DNA from: Pyxidicoccus parkwaysis
GTDB lineage: Bacteria; Myxococcota; Myxococcia; Myxococcales; Myxococcaceae
Assembly: GCF_017301735.1 (NCBI RefSeq)
Contig: NZ_CP071090.1
Span: 7,678,001-7,742,000 of the forward strand
Reading direction: 5' to 3'
Length of the DNA: 64,000 bases
The notes under the pieces: model-generated
Seen by the model: the letters and a program-made list of their open reading frames with translations, nothing else
Databases searched by the model: none
What the model was told of the DNA's origin: nothing
Position numbers and translations under genes: made by a program
Shown here: piece after piece, positions 7,154 to 59,686 of the stretch
Numbering within the stretch: position 1 is the first letter of the stretch
Layout of the letters: the number at the start of each line of letters is the position of its first letter

Positions 7154-8788
7154 TCAAGGCCCAAATGTGACGGCAGGCAGAACGGCGAGCGCCCCAGGCA
7201 GGGCTCGAACCTGCGACCCCCGGCTTAGAAGACCCACGCGTAAGCCGGCAGAATCTGACGCCTTTTCGTAACCATTGGCACTTGTTGGCATATTCGCTTG
7301 TTCTCCGTTTCGACGTTCCCTGTTGTTGGCAGCCGCTGGCACGTTTTCGCCGCTTCCGACTGGAAACTGGCTGGAAGAGGACTCGACCGGTTCGAAGCCC
7401 GCGAAGGCCTCGTCCACCTTGGCTGTCAGGTGCTGGCGACGGACCGCCGTGTAGTGCCGGCGCGTGGTGCGGTCCGTGGTGTGTCCGCCCAAGTCCTGCG
7501 CCGCCTTGAGGTCGCCTGTGCGCTCCACCACGTGGGTGAGGTAACTGGCGCGGAGGTCCTTGAAGAGGTGGAGAGTAGGCACCGGTTCAGCCTTCATCTC
7601 CACGCCGCAGCCAGGGCATGTCCGGGGTGCGGCATCAGGATGCCGAGCCGAGTGTCCGCATCCCCCCTCGCCTCGTGCGGCCCCTCCCCACCGCTCTCCC
7701 CGGACAATCATCCCCACCGTGCGAGGCGACACCCCGAAGCTGCGGGCGAGCTCCGCCTGGGTGGTGCCCTTCGCGGCACGCTTCCGCAGGTCCCGCACTT
7801 GGAGTGCGGTCAGCTTGGACCGGCCGTTGCGCTCACCCGGCGCCCGCGTCTTCCGCGCGACACAGGTGAACTCGTACCCGTCCACGATGCCCGCCCGCAT
7901 GAGGGCGGTCCGGAAGCGGCTGTTGATGTCGTAGTCGGGGCGGCGCTGGCGTCCGTGCTTGTCCGGGAAGGCCCACTCGCTGGTGGCTGATGCCCGGCGG
8001 CGCTCAAGGACGGGCAGCAGGGCCCGCGGAATGGGCACCTCGCGAGCCCGCCCAGTTTTCGTCGTCCGCCGCTTCCCGGAGCGTCGGACGACGAGGTACC
8101 GGTCCTCCAGGAAGACGCTCTCCCACCGAAGAGCGAGCAGCTCTCCCCGCCGGAGCCCGGTGTGGGCCGCAGTGAGAATCATGTCCGCGATGTCCTCGTG
8201 CGAGGCGTGCGACGCCACCGTTTCGGCTTCGGCTAGGTCCAGGACACGGGGCTCGGGCTCCGGCACGTCCGGGTCCCACGCCAGCGACGCCGGATTCTCC
8301 CCGGTGAAGATGCGCGCCTCCTTCTTCGCCCACGTAAAGAAGGCCTGGAGGTGAACACGGAGATGGCGGACCGTCTGGGGCCCGAGCCCGCCGTCCGTCT
8401 TCCCCGGCGCGTCGCGCTCCTCCTCGTCCTCTTCCTCGTTGCGCAGCTTGGAGCGCAACAGGACGCTGATGTCCTCCGGCCGAATCTTGTGGATGGGCCT
8501 GTCTCCCAGGGCGGGAAGGATGTGGTTCCGCCACCGGCCGTCGATGGTGTCGTACGAGGCCAAGCCCTGGATGACGGGGCGGAACTGCTCGAAGGCGTCG
8601 CGCAGCTTGATTTCGACGGGAGGCACCTCCAGCCCCTGGCGAACTCGCCACGCACGCAGCTCCATCTCATTGGCGAGGAGCTCGGCCTGCGCCTTGGTGC
8701 GCGCGGGCGTCACCACCTCACGCTGTGTCCCCTCCTCGTCCTTGTAGATTGCGTACCACTTCTCTCCGTGCCGCCGGGTGAAGGCCAC
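7154..8788 (-). CDS. int: Phage tyrosine integrase, prophage form with host-derived C-terminal end
   Basis: Tyrosine recombinase for integration and excision, 544 residues in this state. The GTG at 8788 was chosen: AAGGAG stands 7-8 bp upstream and overlaps the xis stop. An arm-binding N terminus (about 1-50) and a core-binding domain (about 60-170) come first. In the catalytic part I see Arg213 in HTGLRRGEL, Arg413 in KDLRASYLTH (Lys replaces the usual His), His436 in GGHTT and Tyr446 in RHYTAV. An insert of roughly 95 residues (about 308-404) carries a helix-turn-helix and Cys pairs. Residues 520-535 are encoded by attL and the last nine (VLPAVTFGP) by host DNA. In the circular phage the frame instead continues for 92 other residues. 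Confidence 0.93.
   Translation of the reverse strand: MAFTRRHGEKWYAIYKDEEGTQREVVTPARTKAQAELLANEMELRAWRVRQGLEVPPVEIKLRDAFEQFRPVIQGLASYDTIDGRWRNHILPALGDRPIHKIRPEDISVLLRSKLRNEEEDEEERDAPGKTDGGLGPQTVRHLRVHLQAFFTWAKKEARIFTGENPASLAWDPDVPEPEPRVLDLAEAETVASHASHEDIADMILTAAHTGLRRGELLALRWESVFLEDRYLVVRRSGKRRTTKTGRAREVPIPRALLPVLERRRASATSEWAFPDKHGRQRRPDYDINSRFRTALMRAGIVDGYEFTCVARKTRAPGERNGRSKLTALQVRDLRKRAAKGTTQAELARSFGVSPRTVGMIVRGERWGGAARGEGGCGHSARHPDAAPRTCPGCGVEMKAEPVPTLHLFKDLRASYLTHVVERTGDLKAAQDLGGHTTDRTTRRHYTAVRRQHLTAKVDEAFAGFEPVESSSSQFPVGSGENVPAAANNRERRNGEQANMPTSANGYEKASDSAGLRVGLLSRGSQVRALPGALAVLPAVTFGP
7183..7231 (-). repeat. attL core, displaced 3' half of tRNA-Arg(TCT) inside int
   Basis: This 49-bp block is identical to 59606-59654. 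On the minus strand it begins at the first base of the anticodon loop (CTTCTAA) and runs past the 3' end of the tRNA. Flanking bases differ immediately (7181-7182 AA against 59604-59605 TT, and 7232 A against 59655 G). The block also encodes integrase residues 520-535. Confidence 0.95.
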
Positions 8789-8792
8789 GACG

Positions 8793-9155
8793 TCACTCCT
8801 TCGCCAGCGCGGCAGCGAGAACGGATGCGGACGCGCGCCGACGAGCACGCTTCGGCTTCGTGGGCGTCGCGTCCTGTGCCGTCGCCCACGCCATGACCTG
8901 GGACGGAACGAACATCAGCCCGCCGACGCGCTTCGAGTGCGGCAGCAAGCCGGCCTCGGCCTTCTTGTAGACCCACGACACCGAGCGCCCGAGCGCCGCG
9001 GCAACGTGCTCCTTCAACCACAGGTCCTTCGGGAGCTGGTCCAGCGGTACAGGCGCGCGGCGAGGCTTCTTCCTCGCCGCCGGCCTCGACTCTTCGGCCG
9101 CGCCCAGACTCGACTCCGCATTGTGCTGCCCGTCACCGCGAATGCAGCCGTTCAT
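8793..9155 (-). CDS. xis: Excisionase-like MerR-type helix-turn-helix protein
   Basis: 120-residue protein with a MerR/HTH_17-type domain at about residues 42-92: WLKEHVAAALGRSVSWVYKK, then GGLMFVPSQVMAWA. Such proteins bend DNA and direct the integrase towards excision. The N and C termini are basic and low in complexity. GGAAAG precedes the ATG. The stop lies 4 bp upstream of the int GTG, so the two are translated together. The name excisionase is inferred from fold and position next to int. Confidence 0.75.
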   Translation of the reverse strand: MNGCIRGDGQHNAESSLGAAEESRPAARKKPRRAPVPLDQLPKDLWLKEHVAAALGRSVSWVYKKAEAGLLPHSKRVGGLMFVPSQVMAWATAQDATPTKPKRARRRASASVLAAALAKE

Positions 9156-43893: not shown

Positions 43894-46470
43894 ATGTCCG
43901 GCGGTCTGCGCGTAGGTGACTTGTACCTGGCCGTCACGGCCAGCATCGCTCCCGCGCTCAAGTCACTGGGCGAGCTCGTGGAGTCCGTGGAGAAGGCTGC
44001 GCGGCAAGTAAAGGCAGCGGCCAACGACATCGGCGAAATCGGCGCGGTGGTGGCGGCCGGAATTGCCGGCGCCGTGGCCGCCGCCGCCCAGTCCAATGCG
44101 GACATGAAAGAGGAGGTGGAGCACCTCACCGACTTGCTCTACACGCTCGCCGCCGAGTTGGGCGACCTCTTCGCGCCCGTGGTGAAGCAACTCACCGAGT
44201 TCGTAGAGCGGCTGGTCGCCACCTTCCAGCACCTCTCACCGGAGACAAAGCAGGCCGGGGCAGACATGGCCACGTGGGTGGCCGGCACAGGCCTCGCCAT
44301 CGGCGCCTTGGGCAAGCTGGCCGGTGTCGTGGAAGCCCTCAGCGGCGGCATGGGCCTGCTCATCAAGGGCTTGGGCGCGCTGTCGAAGTCCACGAGCCTC
44401 GCCTCCCTCGGTGCCACGCTGGCGGGCCTCGCCGCGCCCGTGGCCGCCGTGGCCGCGGCGGTGGCTGCCCTGACGCTGCTGGCCGGTGCCGTCTACGGCG
44501 CGTGGACGGACTCCTCCACCGGACTGCGTGAGTCCGTGCTCTCCATTCTCGCCAGCGTGGGCCAGGTGGCCGCCCGGGTGTGGGAGGTGCTGAAGAGCAC
44601 CTTCGAGGCGCTCGGCGCCGTCATCCACGCCATCGTCCTCGACTCGCTCAACACCATGGCGTGGTTGGTGAGGGAAACGGCCAAGAAGCTGATGCCGCTG
44701 GCGGACGTGCTGGGCATGACGCGCCTCCAGGCGGGGTTGAAGGCGGCGGCGGGGCTGACGGGTGAGGACCTGATGAAGGCCCTGGAAGCCGGCGGCAGCT
44801 ACGTGAAGGACCAGGTGGCGGCCGGCGCCAAGGCGCTCGGCAACGCGGTCTCCTCGCTCGGCAGCACCATCTACGACGCGGGAAAGGCTGTGGGACAGGG
44901 CGTGGCGGACGGCTTCTCCTCGGCCCTCGCGGGCACGAAGAAGATGTTCGCGGACATGGGGCTGTCGGGCCTCATCGAGTCCCTCATGGCGATGATGCCG
45001 AGCCTGCCCACCCTCGCCGACGCGAAGGCCAGCGTCCGGGAGAAGGACGAGGACAAGGGCATCGACGTCTCGGGCCCGGCGCATCGTGAGCTGGACGCCA
45101 TGGTGAAGGATGTCCAGGCGCTCGCCGCGCATGGCGGCACGGCCACGCGCGCCCTCACCCACGCCATGGAGGACAAGGCCCAGGCGCTCGCGCGCGCAAT
45201 GGCGGAGGCCGCCGAGGCCGCGCGACAGGCCATTGCCCAGGCACGCGAGGCGCTGAAGCAGCGCTTCACCAGCGCCTTCGGCCAGCTCACGGACATGGTG
45301 GACATGTTCAGCCAGGGCACCCTTGCGGCCGGCGGCAACCCGCTGGGCGGCGTGGCCGCCGTCGTGGGCGAGTTGCTCACGCAGTCCGAGGGCTTCCGGA
45401 CGCTGATGGAGATGGTCTCCTCCATCATCCAGCGGGTGGCGGACGCGCTGGGAAAGATTCTGGAGCCGCTCCAGCCGCTGCTCGGCGCCGTCTCACTCAT
45501 CGTCGATGCACTGATGAGCGCCATCACCCCCGTCTTCGAGCTGCTGGGCGAGGCGCTCAAGCCCCTCGTCCCGCCACTCGTCATCGTCGGTCAGCTCCTC
45601 CAGGGCCTCGCGCCGCTGCTGGAAGTCCTGATGAAAGCCTTCTCCGTCGTCATGATGCCGCTGCAGCTCCTCGGCGGGCCGGTGCTGAAGGGCCTCTTCG
45701 AGGTGCTGAAGTTCGTCTCCACCGTCGTGCTGTACGTGGCGATGGCCATTGGTTCGGTGTGGAACGCGGTCATCTCCGCCATCCAGGCGGTGATTCGGGC
45801 AATCAGCAGCGTCATCGACTGGACGGGTTTCGACGGCCTCAACCGGCTCGCGCGCAGCATCGGCCGGATGAAGGTGGACACGGACTCCATGTCCGACGCC
45901 CTGCGCGAGCTCGCCGACACCACCTGGGACAGCGCGGACGCCACCGCGGAGAACGCGGCGGAGAATTTGAAGAACGCGGACGCACTGCGCCGGGCAAACG
46001 AGGCCCTCACCAACGTGCCTGCCGCATGGAAGGTAGCGCTGCGTCGCTTCCAGGTGCAGGACTCGCAGGAAGGTCCAATCGTGGAGCCGACACCGACGCC
46101 CGGCACCGGCGGCGGCACTGGCATCCCTGACGTCGGCGTGGGTGGCGGCAGCGGCGGCAACCCGGTGGAGTCCCGCTTCCGCGAGACGTTGCACGAGCTC
46201 CGGGACATGTACCCGGAGCGCAACGGAGTCCAAGCCATGCTGGACCCGCTCCGAAACGCGCTGGATTCCATCCTCCACCGTCGCGCTCCGGAGCCGCCGA
46301 CGACTCCGGAGGACGAGAAGACCGTCGCCACGTCCTTCAACATCACCATCAACGGCACGGACATCTCCGAGGCCATGACCGAGGCGCAGCGCTTCGCGGA
46401 GCGGCAGCGCAGCCTCCTCGGCCTGCGCAGTTCCGGCCGCACCGCCCGCCTCACGCCGAAGTTCGGCTGA
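43894..46470 (+). CDS. Tape measure protein
   Basis: 858 residues. Long helical protein that sets tail length. It is Ala/Leu/Val-rich with several hydrophobic segments (for example VAAVAAAVAALTLLAGAVYG near 195 and the 540-640 region) and coiled-coil stretches (ARAMAEAAEAARQAIAQARE). The C terminus has a Gly/Pro linker and a charged end. It follows the chaperone frameshift gene by 3 bp. The length suggests a tail of ordinary siphovirus size. Confidence 0.92.
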   Translation: MSGGLRVGDLYLAVTASIAPALKSLGELVESVEKAARQVKAAANDIGEIGAVVAAGIAGAVAAAAQSNADMKEEVEHLTDLLYTLAAELGDLFAPVVKQLTEFVERLVATFQHLSPETKQAGADMATWVAGTGLAIGALGKLAGVVEALSGGMGLLIKGLGALSKSTSLASLGATLAGLAAPVAAVAAAVAALTLLAGAVYGAWTDSSTGLRESVLSILASVGQVAARVWEVLKSTFEALGAVIHAIVLDSLNTMAWLVRETAKKLMPLADVLGMTRLQAGLKAAAGLTGEDLMKALEAGGSYVKDQVAAGAKALGNAVSSLGSTIYDAGKAVGQGVADGFSSALAGTKKMFADMGLSGLIESLMAMMPSLPTLADAKASVREKDEDKGIDVSGPAHRELDAMVKDVQALAAHGGTATRALTHAMEDKAQALARAMAEAAEAARQAIAQAREALKQRFTSAFGQLTDMVDMFSQGTLAAGGNPLGGVAAVVGELLTQSEGFRTLMEMVSSIIQRVADALGKILEPLQPLLGAVSLIVDALMSAITPVFELLGEALKPLVPPLVIVGQLLQGLAPLLEVLMKAFSVVMMPLQLLGGPVLKGLFEVLKFVSTVVLYVAMAIGSVWNAVISAIQAVIRAISSVIDWTGFDGLNRLARSIGRMKVDTDSMSDALRELADTTWDSADATAENAAENLKNADALRRANEALTNVPAAWKVALRRFQVQDSQEGPIVEPTPTPGTGGGTGIPDVGVGGGSGGNPVESRFRETLHELRDMYPERNGVQAMLDPLRNALDSILHRRAPEPPTTPEDEKTVATSFNITINGTDISEAMTEAQRFAERQRSLLGLRSSGRTARLTPKFG

Positions 46471-57904: not shown

Positions 57905-58212
57905 GGCGAGCCTCCTTCTGGGGCCGTGGACGGCGTGGTGATGCCCAGCCACCGCAGGCCCTCCGCCGTAGCGCGTGCGGTGCGAGCCTTGCCCCGCTCG
58001 CGCTCCAGCAGGCCTCGTGCCTCCAGCCCCTGGTAGAACTCCTGCACGGCCTGGAGGCTGTTGGGGCTGAGCCCGAGCTGGCTGAGGAGCTCGCGCGCGG
58101 TGGGCGCACAGCCACGATTGGTGCGGTGCCGCTCGATGAGCCGCAGCACCTGGAGCTGCCTGTCGGTGGGAGGCAGCGTCGTCTTCCGCTGCCGGGGCTC
58201 GGGGCAGCTCAT
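57901..58212 (-). CDS. LexA-like winged-helix DNA-binding protein
   Basis: 103 residues from ATG 58212 (overlap ATGA). PPTDRQLQVLRLIERHRTNR then GCAPTARELLSQLGLSPNSL and QEFYQGLEARGLLERERGKA follow the LexA DNA-binding domain pattern. The LexA peptidase domain is absent, so it is a free DNA-binding module. It could regulate the right arm. Confidence 0.7.
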   Translation of the reverse strand: MSCPEPRQRKTTLPPTDRQLQVLRLIERHRTNRGCAPTARELLSQLGLSPNSLQAVQEFYQGLEARGLLERERGKARTARATAEGLRWLGITTPSTAPEGGSP

Positions 58213-58823
58213 GACGCGCTCCTTTCCCAAGCGGGATTCAGGGCCGCGCGCCAGCGGAGGACTGCCTCATCGGCCTTCACGAGGATTTGACGCACGTTCT
58301 CCCGCGTGCAGCCAAATTGCTGGCCGATGTTCTCCAGCGTCTCCCCGTCGAGGTGCATCAAGTAGGCACGCACCGCGCGCTCTCGTGTGTGCGGCTTCGT
58401 GTCGGGCCGCATGTGCGCGCAGAGCCACTCGCCGATGGAGGCGCGCAGCCGATGGGCCTCCACCATCCGCTCTTGCGTGGGCGGGACAGCGACGTTGAGC
58501 GCGTCGTCGAGCGGCACCTCCTGACGCGGGACGGGCCTGCCGTCCTCGGCACTGGCGACGCCCGTCAGAATCAGCCAGCCCCTCGCGACGTCGCGCCGGA
58601 CGGGCCTACTCGCGTACGTCTTGAACGACGCGCCACCGTCCGGACGCCAGTGCTGAGCCGCGTAGAGGGCACCCAACCAGCCGTAGCTGGCGAGGTCATC
58701 CTCGAAGCCGCGCGCGGCGGGGTTCCGCCGGACGAAGCGATGCACGGCCCACCACACGAGCCGGTGGGCCTGGGGAACGAGCTGCTGCTCGGCAGCGGTG
58801 AGCGGGCGCTGGAGGCTTCTCAT
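58209..58823 (-). CDS. Phage sigma-70-like factor
   Basis: 204 residues from ATG 58823 (overlap ATGA). Region 2: QAHRLVWWAVHRFVRRNPAA, FEDDLASYGWLGALYAAQHW, GASFKTYASRPVRRDV. Region 4 helix-turn-helix: RERAVRAYLMHLDGETLENI then GQQFGCTRENVRQILVKADE. Region 3 is short. Probably recruits host RNA polymerase to phage promoters. Second sigma-like gene besides that at 51276. Confidence 0.85.
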   Translation of the reverse strand: MRSLQRPLTAAEQQLVPQAHRLVWWAVHRFVRRNPAARGFEDDLASYGWLGALYAAQHWRPDGGASFKTYASRPVRRDVARGWLILTGVASAEDGRPVPRQEVPLDDALNVAVPPTQERMVEAHRLRASIGEWLCAHMRPDTKPHTRERAVRAYLMHLDGETLENIGQQFGCTRENVRQILVKADEAVLRWRAALNPAWERSAS

Positions 58824-59044
58824 GGCGCGCGCCTCCGCACGGACGCACGGCCCACGCTGCGCGGGTAGCGCGCGGCGCGCTCGCGACGGAGCATCTCCTG
58901 GGTGAGCGCCAGCGCCGCGTCCTCCTCCGCCTCCTGCCAGGTGGCCGCGTGCGACTCCACCTCCAGACCCACCGCGCGCAGCGTGCACATATGCCCGAGG
59001 GGACCGCGCTCGCTGATGCTCGAGAAGTTGCCCCGGCAGCTCAC
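58820..59044 (-). CDS. Small right-arm protein
   Basis: 74 residues from GTG 59044 (GTGA overlap). MSCRGNFSSISERGPLGHMC, then an amphipathic helix EEAEEDAALALTQEMLRRER-like region. No family recognised. Start and end both coupled to neighbours. Confidence 0.55.
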   Translation of the reverse strand: MSCRGNFSSISERGPLGHMCTLRAVGLEVESHAATWQEAEEDAALALTQEMLRRERAARYPRSVGRASVRRRAP

Positions 59045-59331
59045 AGGGCACCTCCCGGGCGGCGCAGTGCCCGGCTCAGCCGCGCAGTCCCCAAGAGGGC
59101 GGACCGGCAGTCAGCGGCAGAGAAGCGGACCATCCCCACGCCGCCAAGCCCCGCCGTGAGGCGCAAGCGCAGAATCTGTGGGAGGCGCTTCGTTGTCGCG
59201 GCGAGCACGTCCCGGCAGTCGGCCGGGTCGAGGAGCACGGCACGGCGCTCGGAGGCCCCAATCAGAAGGGTGGCATGGAGCACCGGGCCCAAGCAGCGGC
59301 CCGACTTCACCGCGTGAGGAGCCCGATTCAC
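59041..59331 (-). CDS. First right-arm gene, coupled to intP in the circular phage
   Basis: 96 residues from GTG 59331. MNRAPHAVKSGRCLGPVLHA then LLIGASERRAVLLDPADCRD and LPQILRLRLTAGLGGVGMVR. Alpha/beta pattern, no family recognised. The GTG overlaps the intP stop (GTGA at 59328-59331), and GGGGAGGTG precedes it. In the prophage nothing upstream but host tRNA genes lies on this strand. Confidence 0.6.
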   Translation of the reverse strand: MNRAPHAVKSGRCLGPVLHATLLIGASERRAVLLDPADCRDVLAATTKRLPQILRLRLTAGLGGVGMVRFSAADCRSALLGTARLSRALRRPGGAL

Positions 59332-59605
59332 TGGGCACCTCCCCGGCGAGAGGCACTCAGCGAGGCCAGCGCGGAAGCGGCGGCGTCCAGCGGGCAATGG
59401 GCGGACGCGCTGCCCTGGCCGAAGTCAGCCTCCCAGCCGTCAGTGAGGCGACGGAAGCGCAACTCGAACGAGTCTGGGAGCCCGTCGTCGGTTGCCTGCC
59501 GGTCATGCGGCGGGACGCCAACTGGAAGGGGACTGGAAAGGGACTCGGCGGGGGTTCTCTCGCCCAGTGGGGCGGAGTCAAAATCCCCAATGAAAACAGG
59601 CAGTT
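59328..59605 (-). other. 3' end of intP, separated from int by integration
   Basis: This frame has no stop from the att core to TGA 59330-59328 and no start codon of its own. Joined through the core to the gene at 7232-8788, it gives a 627-residue IntP whose last 92 residues begin ELPVFIGDFDSAPLGER and end SLSASRRGGAQ. In the prophage it is a silent fragment. A similar change of C terminus was described for the Mx8 integrase (IntP to IntR), recalled from memory. Confidence 0.85.
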
Positions 59606-59654
59606 CGGCGAGCGCCCCAGGCAGGGCTCGAACCTGCGACCCCCGGCTTAGAAG
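59606..59654 (-). repeat. attR core within tRNA-Arg(TCT)
   Basis: Identical to attL (7183-7231). It supplies the anticodon-loop-to-3'-end half of the tRNA so the gene stays whole after integration. The crossover is within these 49 bp. Confidence 0.95.
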
Positions 59655-59686
59655 GCCGGTGCTCTATCCAGCTGAGCTACTGGAGC
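59613..59686 (-). tRNA. tRNA-Arg (anticodon TCT), prophage attachment site
   Basis: Minus strand: acceptor GCTCCAG/CTGGGGC (one G-U), anticodon stem CCGGC/GCCGG with loop CTTCTAA (TCT, reads AGA), T-arm GCAGG-TTCGAGC-CCTGC, discriminator G. The 5' half is host DNA and the 3' half is phage att DNA. Confidence 0.95.

Follow-up and report, generated by a model that had tools for sequence, protein, structure and literature searches.

An integrase gene with attP in its reading frame and a C-terminal tail encoded by the circular form of a Pyxidicoccus prophage

The integrase gene and the prophage ends

The window (the whole stretch of 64,000 nucleotides that was analysed) contains a prophage with an integrase gene, int, at its left end. 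The prophage ends have, as their longest exact match, 49 bp in common (7183-7231 and 59606-59654), and both copies are tRNA-Arg sequence. Tape measure, portal and head genes were found, in keeping with the long-tailed phage type that had been proposed. An ARAGORN call of tRNA-Arg(CCG) inside the tape-measure gene (44413-44507, plus strand) is without Rfam support and was discarded as probably false. The features of the two ends are as follows.

7154..7182, minus strand: last codons of the lysogen int, encoded by host DNA (VLPAVTFGP and stop); the same locus in genome G004 is read in another frame
7154..8788, minus strand: int, lysogen form, a tyrosine recombinase with a GTG start, 544 aa (Phage_integrase, 2.9e-18; phrog_1 integrase, 1.8e-51)
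7183..7231, minus strand: attL core, 49 bp, in frame with int and consisting of the displaced tRNA-Arg 3′ part (end-to-end repeat comparison)
7688..7837, minus strand: helix-turn-helix (HTH) domain inside the Int catalytic domain, residues ~318-367, within or next to a zinc-ribbon-like insert
8793..9155, minus strand: Uoi/excisionase-like HTH gene directly upstream of int (HTH_17, 6.5e-6; phrog_66 excisionase, 9.2e-7)
58209..59051, minus strand: sigma-70-like regulator (regions 2 and 4), start uncertain, at the right end of the prophage and downstream of intP in circular order
59041..59331, minus strand: ORF of 96 aa, next after intP in the circular phage, its GTG start sharing bases with the intP stop (GTGA)
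59328..59605, minus strand: 3′ end that intP has in the circle alone, 92 codons plus stop (in silico join, frame analysis)
59606..59654, minus strand: attR core, within the intact tRNA-Arg (repeat comparison and tRNA call)
59612..59686, minus strand: tRNA-Arg(TCT), the integration target, intact, its 3′ part restored from phage DNA (tRNA call, genus attB comparison)

The GTG start of int (8788) lies four bases past the stop of the Uoi-like gene. From this start the lysogen Int has 544 residues, 535 encoded by the phage and nine by the host, and its C-terminal end is ..GALAVLPAVTFGP. When the two prophage ends are joined through the core, as in the circular phage, the same frame gives an IntP of 627 residues, namely the 535 shared residues and a tail of 92, with the stop ending at 59328. 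The join is the same from whichever crossover point within the identical core. An end-to-end match to the uninterrupted attB is present in about 15 of the 27 genomes of the genus, which fixes the prophage boundaries.

The original prediction is thus confirmed in its central observation, that attP lies within int and that the protein switches between 544 and 627 residues, and every number it gave proved correct. Repeat comparison and translation agree that int crosses the attL core in frame and ends nine host codons later. The joined sequence is likewise free of stops and frame breaks before 59328, and tRNA-Arg is the integration site, as had been stated.

The residues conserved in alignment at the catalytic positions are R213, K244, K410, R413, H436 and Y446, all before the switch residue 535, and the tyrosine lies 89 residues from the switch. 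Int has the full set of a tyrosine recombinase (R, K, [HK]xxR, H, Y), with K410 replacing the usual His. Because these residues precede residue 535, the lysogen form keeps the full catalytic domain and can probably cut and join DNA. It had been suggested that this form may be unable to excise, which is less likely given the position of the catalytic residues and the lysogen form of phage Mx8, which is reported to be modified and not inactivated. The HTH inserted in Int is of a kind found behind HNH homing endonucleases; the zinc-ribbon-like insert is also present in more distant Int relatives, there without the HTH.

The circle-only tail and the attP arms

A frame of 92 codons would be open by chance in DNA of this composition with a probability of ~0.28, and the absence of stops, which the original prediction had correctly noted, is therefore weak evidence by itself. 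The tail had no match in Pfam or PHROGs, and a single-sequence structure model (beta-beta-beta-alpha, pLDDT 57) is of low confidence and too weak to name or search. The remaining evidence comes from relatives.

The nearest relative of Int (64% identity over 465 residues) is in G004, a genome of the same genus, where the int locus corresponds to that of the window, both being beside tRNA-His and tRNA-Arg(TCG). When the 92-residue tail was compared with 119 related genomes a single relative was found, also in G004, beside tRNA-Arg(TCT) and tRNA-Pro; it is the opposite end of the prophage that carries the nearest Int. The rejoined G004 IntP, made from prophage ends on two separate contigs, has 621 aa. 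Its core is read in a different frame (RPSKSGVAGSSP compared with LLSRGSQVRALPG in the window IntP) and the tails are homologous despite this change: LPARFSLQFEETPDGWAVEV..PLEATAAALEVLAVARPKGGAQ-stop in G004 and LPDSFELRFRRLTDGWEADF..PLDAAASALASLSASRRGGAQ-stop in the window. Among viral contigs no relative was found with the window Int alone as query, and alignments as queries gave only matches that were remote or to the HTH insert. The plasmid search gave only remote catalytic-domain matches and the phage-record search only remote matches, Mx4 included.

The homology covers ~50 residues at the end of the tail, corresponding in the window to the following feature.

59331..59480, minus strand: conserved C-terminal domain (LPDSFELRF..RRGGAQ), homologous to the tail in G004

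Both tails end in GGAQ-stop (RRGGAQ in the window, PKGGAQ in G004). In the alignment of 50 codons the three codon positions show 18, 20 and 33 differences, and of the frame pairs compared the int frame scores highest (100), the next same-strand pair scoring 54 and the opposite-strand mirror frame 88. In both phages the intP stop and the start codon that follows share bases (GTGA and ATGA). The host-encoded ends of the two lysogen forms, by contrast, are in different frames and are not conserved; since the tail is conserved and these ends are not, it is the phage form that is kept. With the conserved tail in G004, the open frame in the window goes beyond chance.

A 15-base motif, CTGGAARRGGACTCG, occurs on both sides of the core. 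With one mismatch allowed there are 3 copies in 64 kb, all beside the core, where 0.04 are expected, a count that is descriptive, the motif having been derived from these very sites. Distances are in int sense from the core start.

7371..7385, plus strand: arm-type repeat CTGGAAGAGGACTCG, -154 bp
59533..59547, plus strand: arm-type repeat CTGGAAAGGGACTCG, +107 bp
59522..59536, plus strand: arm-type repeat with 1 mismatch, +118 bp

Degenerate copies are present in G004 at -155 and +108 (2 and 3 mismatches), and 2 of 300 shuffles were equally good; these copies give independent support. The repeats look like arm-type sites, to which Int would bind. As both arms are within the int reading frame, the linker between the catalytic domain and the tail is at the same time attP. 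GC3 drops past the catalytic domain and is low in the linker, which fits this double role.

Two other readings bear on these data. According to the first, the tail is accidental read-through: Int ends functionally near residue 470, the 3′ extension that holds attP is neutral, and neither C terminus has any relevance. The chance of an open frame and the fall in GC3 agree with this, while the retention of tail and stop in G004 despite the frame change through the core argues against it. According to the second, it is the DNA alone that counts: arms are required next to the core, their overlap with the int frame has no meaning of its own, and the tail domain is made as a small protein in its own right. 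The position of the arm repeats, within the linker and on both sides, is compatible with such an arrangement. Neither the window tail nor that of G004, however, has an ATG, GTG or TTG between the core and the conserved domain.

Integrases of myxobacterial relatives

Homologues from the same phylum were chosen by similarity to the window Int and rejoined through the second copy of the core in the fetched DNA. Both copies were located in 27 elements, including those of the window and G004; some are related, so that they are not 27 independent events, and the counts cover homologues with the second copy inside the fetched DNA. Many further homologues showed no second copy there and carry no weight for or against. 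Two rows (G018_L030 and G067) were left out, the repeats there being neighbouring int paralogues.

The core is inside the int frame in 26 of the 27 elements, the exception being G045, where it lies 107 bp past the stop. In 24 of the 27, int continues in frame into a tail of 90 residues or more that the circle alone encodes, and 18 of those 24 tails end in an excisionase-like HTH_17 domain (six tested by Pfam, E 1e-11 to 1e-14, and all 18 called with a profile built from those six). The layout is widespread among mobile elements of myxobacteria, most often with HTH_17 as the removable end. The elements with HTH_17 tails are mostly ~5-13 kb. The cores belong to various tRNA genes, in sense or antisense orientation, with the reading frame varying as well. 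In nine elements, including those of the window and G004, the intP stop overlaps by 4 bases an ORF behind it that has 88 codons or more. For the closest HTH pair (G015 and G026) dN/dS is ~0.13 both in the Int body and in the HTH, and ~0.7 in the linker; the HTH is under purifying selection, as the Int body is.

The integrase genes of contigs G100:C6 and G109:C199 share 95% DNA identity as far as the core end, beyond which they diverge, the former running in frame into an HTH tail and the latter into different DNA; this pair appears to be a natural instance of the switch. The open reading frame of G100:C6 (L155 1340-2980, minus strand) has 549 residues and takes in, without a change of frame, the integrase, a tRNA-Gly-like core and an HTH_17 tail; upstream of it is a Uoi-like HTH gene. 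The contig was checked as a circle and its ends do not overlap. At another locus (L148 6855-8654, on G100:C52) an integrated int continues into a second HTH tail, apparently from a neighbouring element, and tandem accretion could give the tail of one element to the integrase of another. Open-access literature searches found no report of HTH_17 tails cut off by integration, although earlier reports are possible.

The survey also bears on both readings introduced above. The int genes of G001 (52% identical) and G045 stop before the core, so that such a tail is dispensable for integrases of this kind, as read-through would have it. An in-frame HTH_17 after different tRNA cores in 18 relatives, together with the low dN/dS of the one pair, speaks against read-through, which we consider distinctly improbable. 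Possible internal TTG or GTG starts in some HTH tails would suit a separate small protein, but the tail frame agrees with that of int in all 24 tailed elements, and a role for the DNA alone is very improbable.

A third possibility is that the tail is a negative element (an autoinhibitory, directionality-blocking or degradation signal), the short lysogen form being the more active or stable one, as is the repressor of mycobacteriophage BPs. There is precedent in BPs, where integration removes a C-terminal tag (PMC4557955). The conserved GGAQ terminus and the resemblance of the HTH_17 tails to excisionases point in the same direction; excisionases oppose integration. Inspection of the lost C terminus, however, revealed no ssrA-like tag in the window or in G004, and the tail domains are of several kinds and of the size of folded domains. 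The Mx8 integrase, which is said to switch from IntP to IntR/IntX, is also reportedly less active in its lysogen form. A negative element is on balance unlikely, and a tail that helps integration is preferred over one that restrains the enzyme.

Proposed mechanism and comparison with known systems

The best explanation, to which we give a probability of about 0.7, is a recombination-gated composite integrase that would have its C-terminal accessory domain only before integration. It draws on four things that the sequence shows: how the ends join, the conservation of the tail, that of the arms, and a switch located precisely at the core. Weighing against it are the single relative of the tail (G004, with its two ends on different contigs), the int genes of G001 and G045 that stop ahead of the core, and the low GC3 and weak constraint of the linker. 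The int gene would consist of a catalytic domain, a linker that is also attP (the core with arms on both sides) and a small C-terminal domain, the full 627-residue IntP being encoded by the circular phage alone. Integration into tRNA-Arg(TCT) replaces the last 92 residues with 9 encoded by the host. Judging from gene order, uoi, intP, the 96-aa ORF and the sigma-like gene would be co-directional across attP in the circular phage and split in the lysogen; the tail and the genes that follow it would thereby be cut off from the uoi-int promoter on integration and rejoined to it on excision. The tail may be an accessory domain that binds DNA or protein and promotes integration and, by analogy with Mx8, its loss may lower or redirect recombination by the prophage enzyme and stabilise lysogeny. 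Excision would then rest on the truncated, catalytically complete Int together with the Uoi-like factor.

Extended to the family, the reading is tentative and we hold it at slightly under even odds: attP would lie mid-gene in a large bacterial family of integrases with C-terminal domains, so that the product of recombination sets whether the accessory domain is present. For many small elements an excisionase-like HTH would be cut off and rebuilt as a self-resetting directionality latch, the window phage having a different removable domain.

It is, to our knowledge, rare for an enzyme to rewrite its coding sequence through the reaction it catalyses. Mx8 already exemplifies the principle; what appears to be new is the survey pattern of cores within int, circle-only tails and HTH_17 ends. 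The comparison suggests that the same principle operates repeatedly, with removable domains of several kinds and at many different tRNA targets, so that it can be tested. A further consequence is that an integrase annotated from an integrated element often has a C terminus other than that of the mobile form.

Archaeal suicidal (SSV-type) integrases also have the recombination site inside int and are cut on integration (PMC8371274). In that case integration severs the catalytic domain, leaving the enzyme inactive, whereas the window Int, with R213 to Y446 all before residue 535, loses the C-terminal domain only. Mycobacteriophage BPs is alike in having attP within the gene of a regulatory protein, which loses C-terminal sequence on integration; it differs in that the gene is that of the repressor, with an ssrA-like tag in the part lost, and not that of the integrase (PMC4557955).

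The closest parallel in organisation is Mx8 (AF396866; PMC6070905), in which attP is inside int, the core is a tRNA 3′ end, the C terminus is replaced on integration, the phage-encoded C terminus is longer in the circular than in the lysogen form, and an HTH gene, uoi, is directly upstream of int. Integration gives the Mx8 int a new 3′ end, modifying but not inactivating the enzyme (PMC6070905), and this review bears out the likeness to the Mx8 switch named in the original prediction. The likeness to Mx8 IntP holds for organisation and not for sequence homology: similarity between the two Int proteins is remote (25% over 68 aa) and the tails are unrelated (z = -0.1). Among the survey tails, that of Mx8 shows weak likeness to those of G024 (z 3.2) and G092 (z 2.8); with the rejoined G024 tail the Mx8 tail (L039) shares a helix followed by W..CPxC. 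Mx8 is podovirus-like and the window phage long-tailed; the tRNA core is antisense in Mx8 and sense in the window phage, and Pfam reports no HTH insert in Mx8 Int, unlike that of the window. The window system therefore appears to work like Mx8 without being a homologous copy of it.
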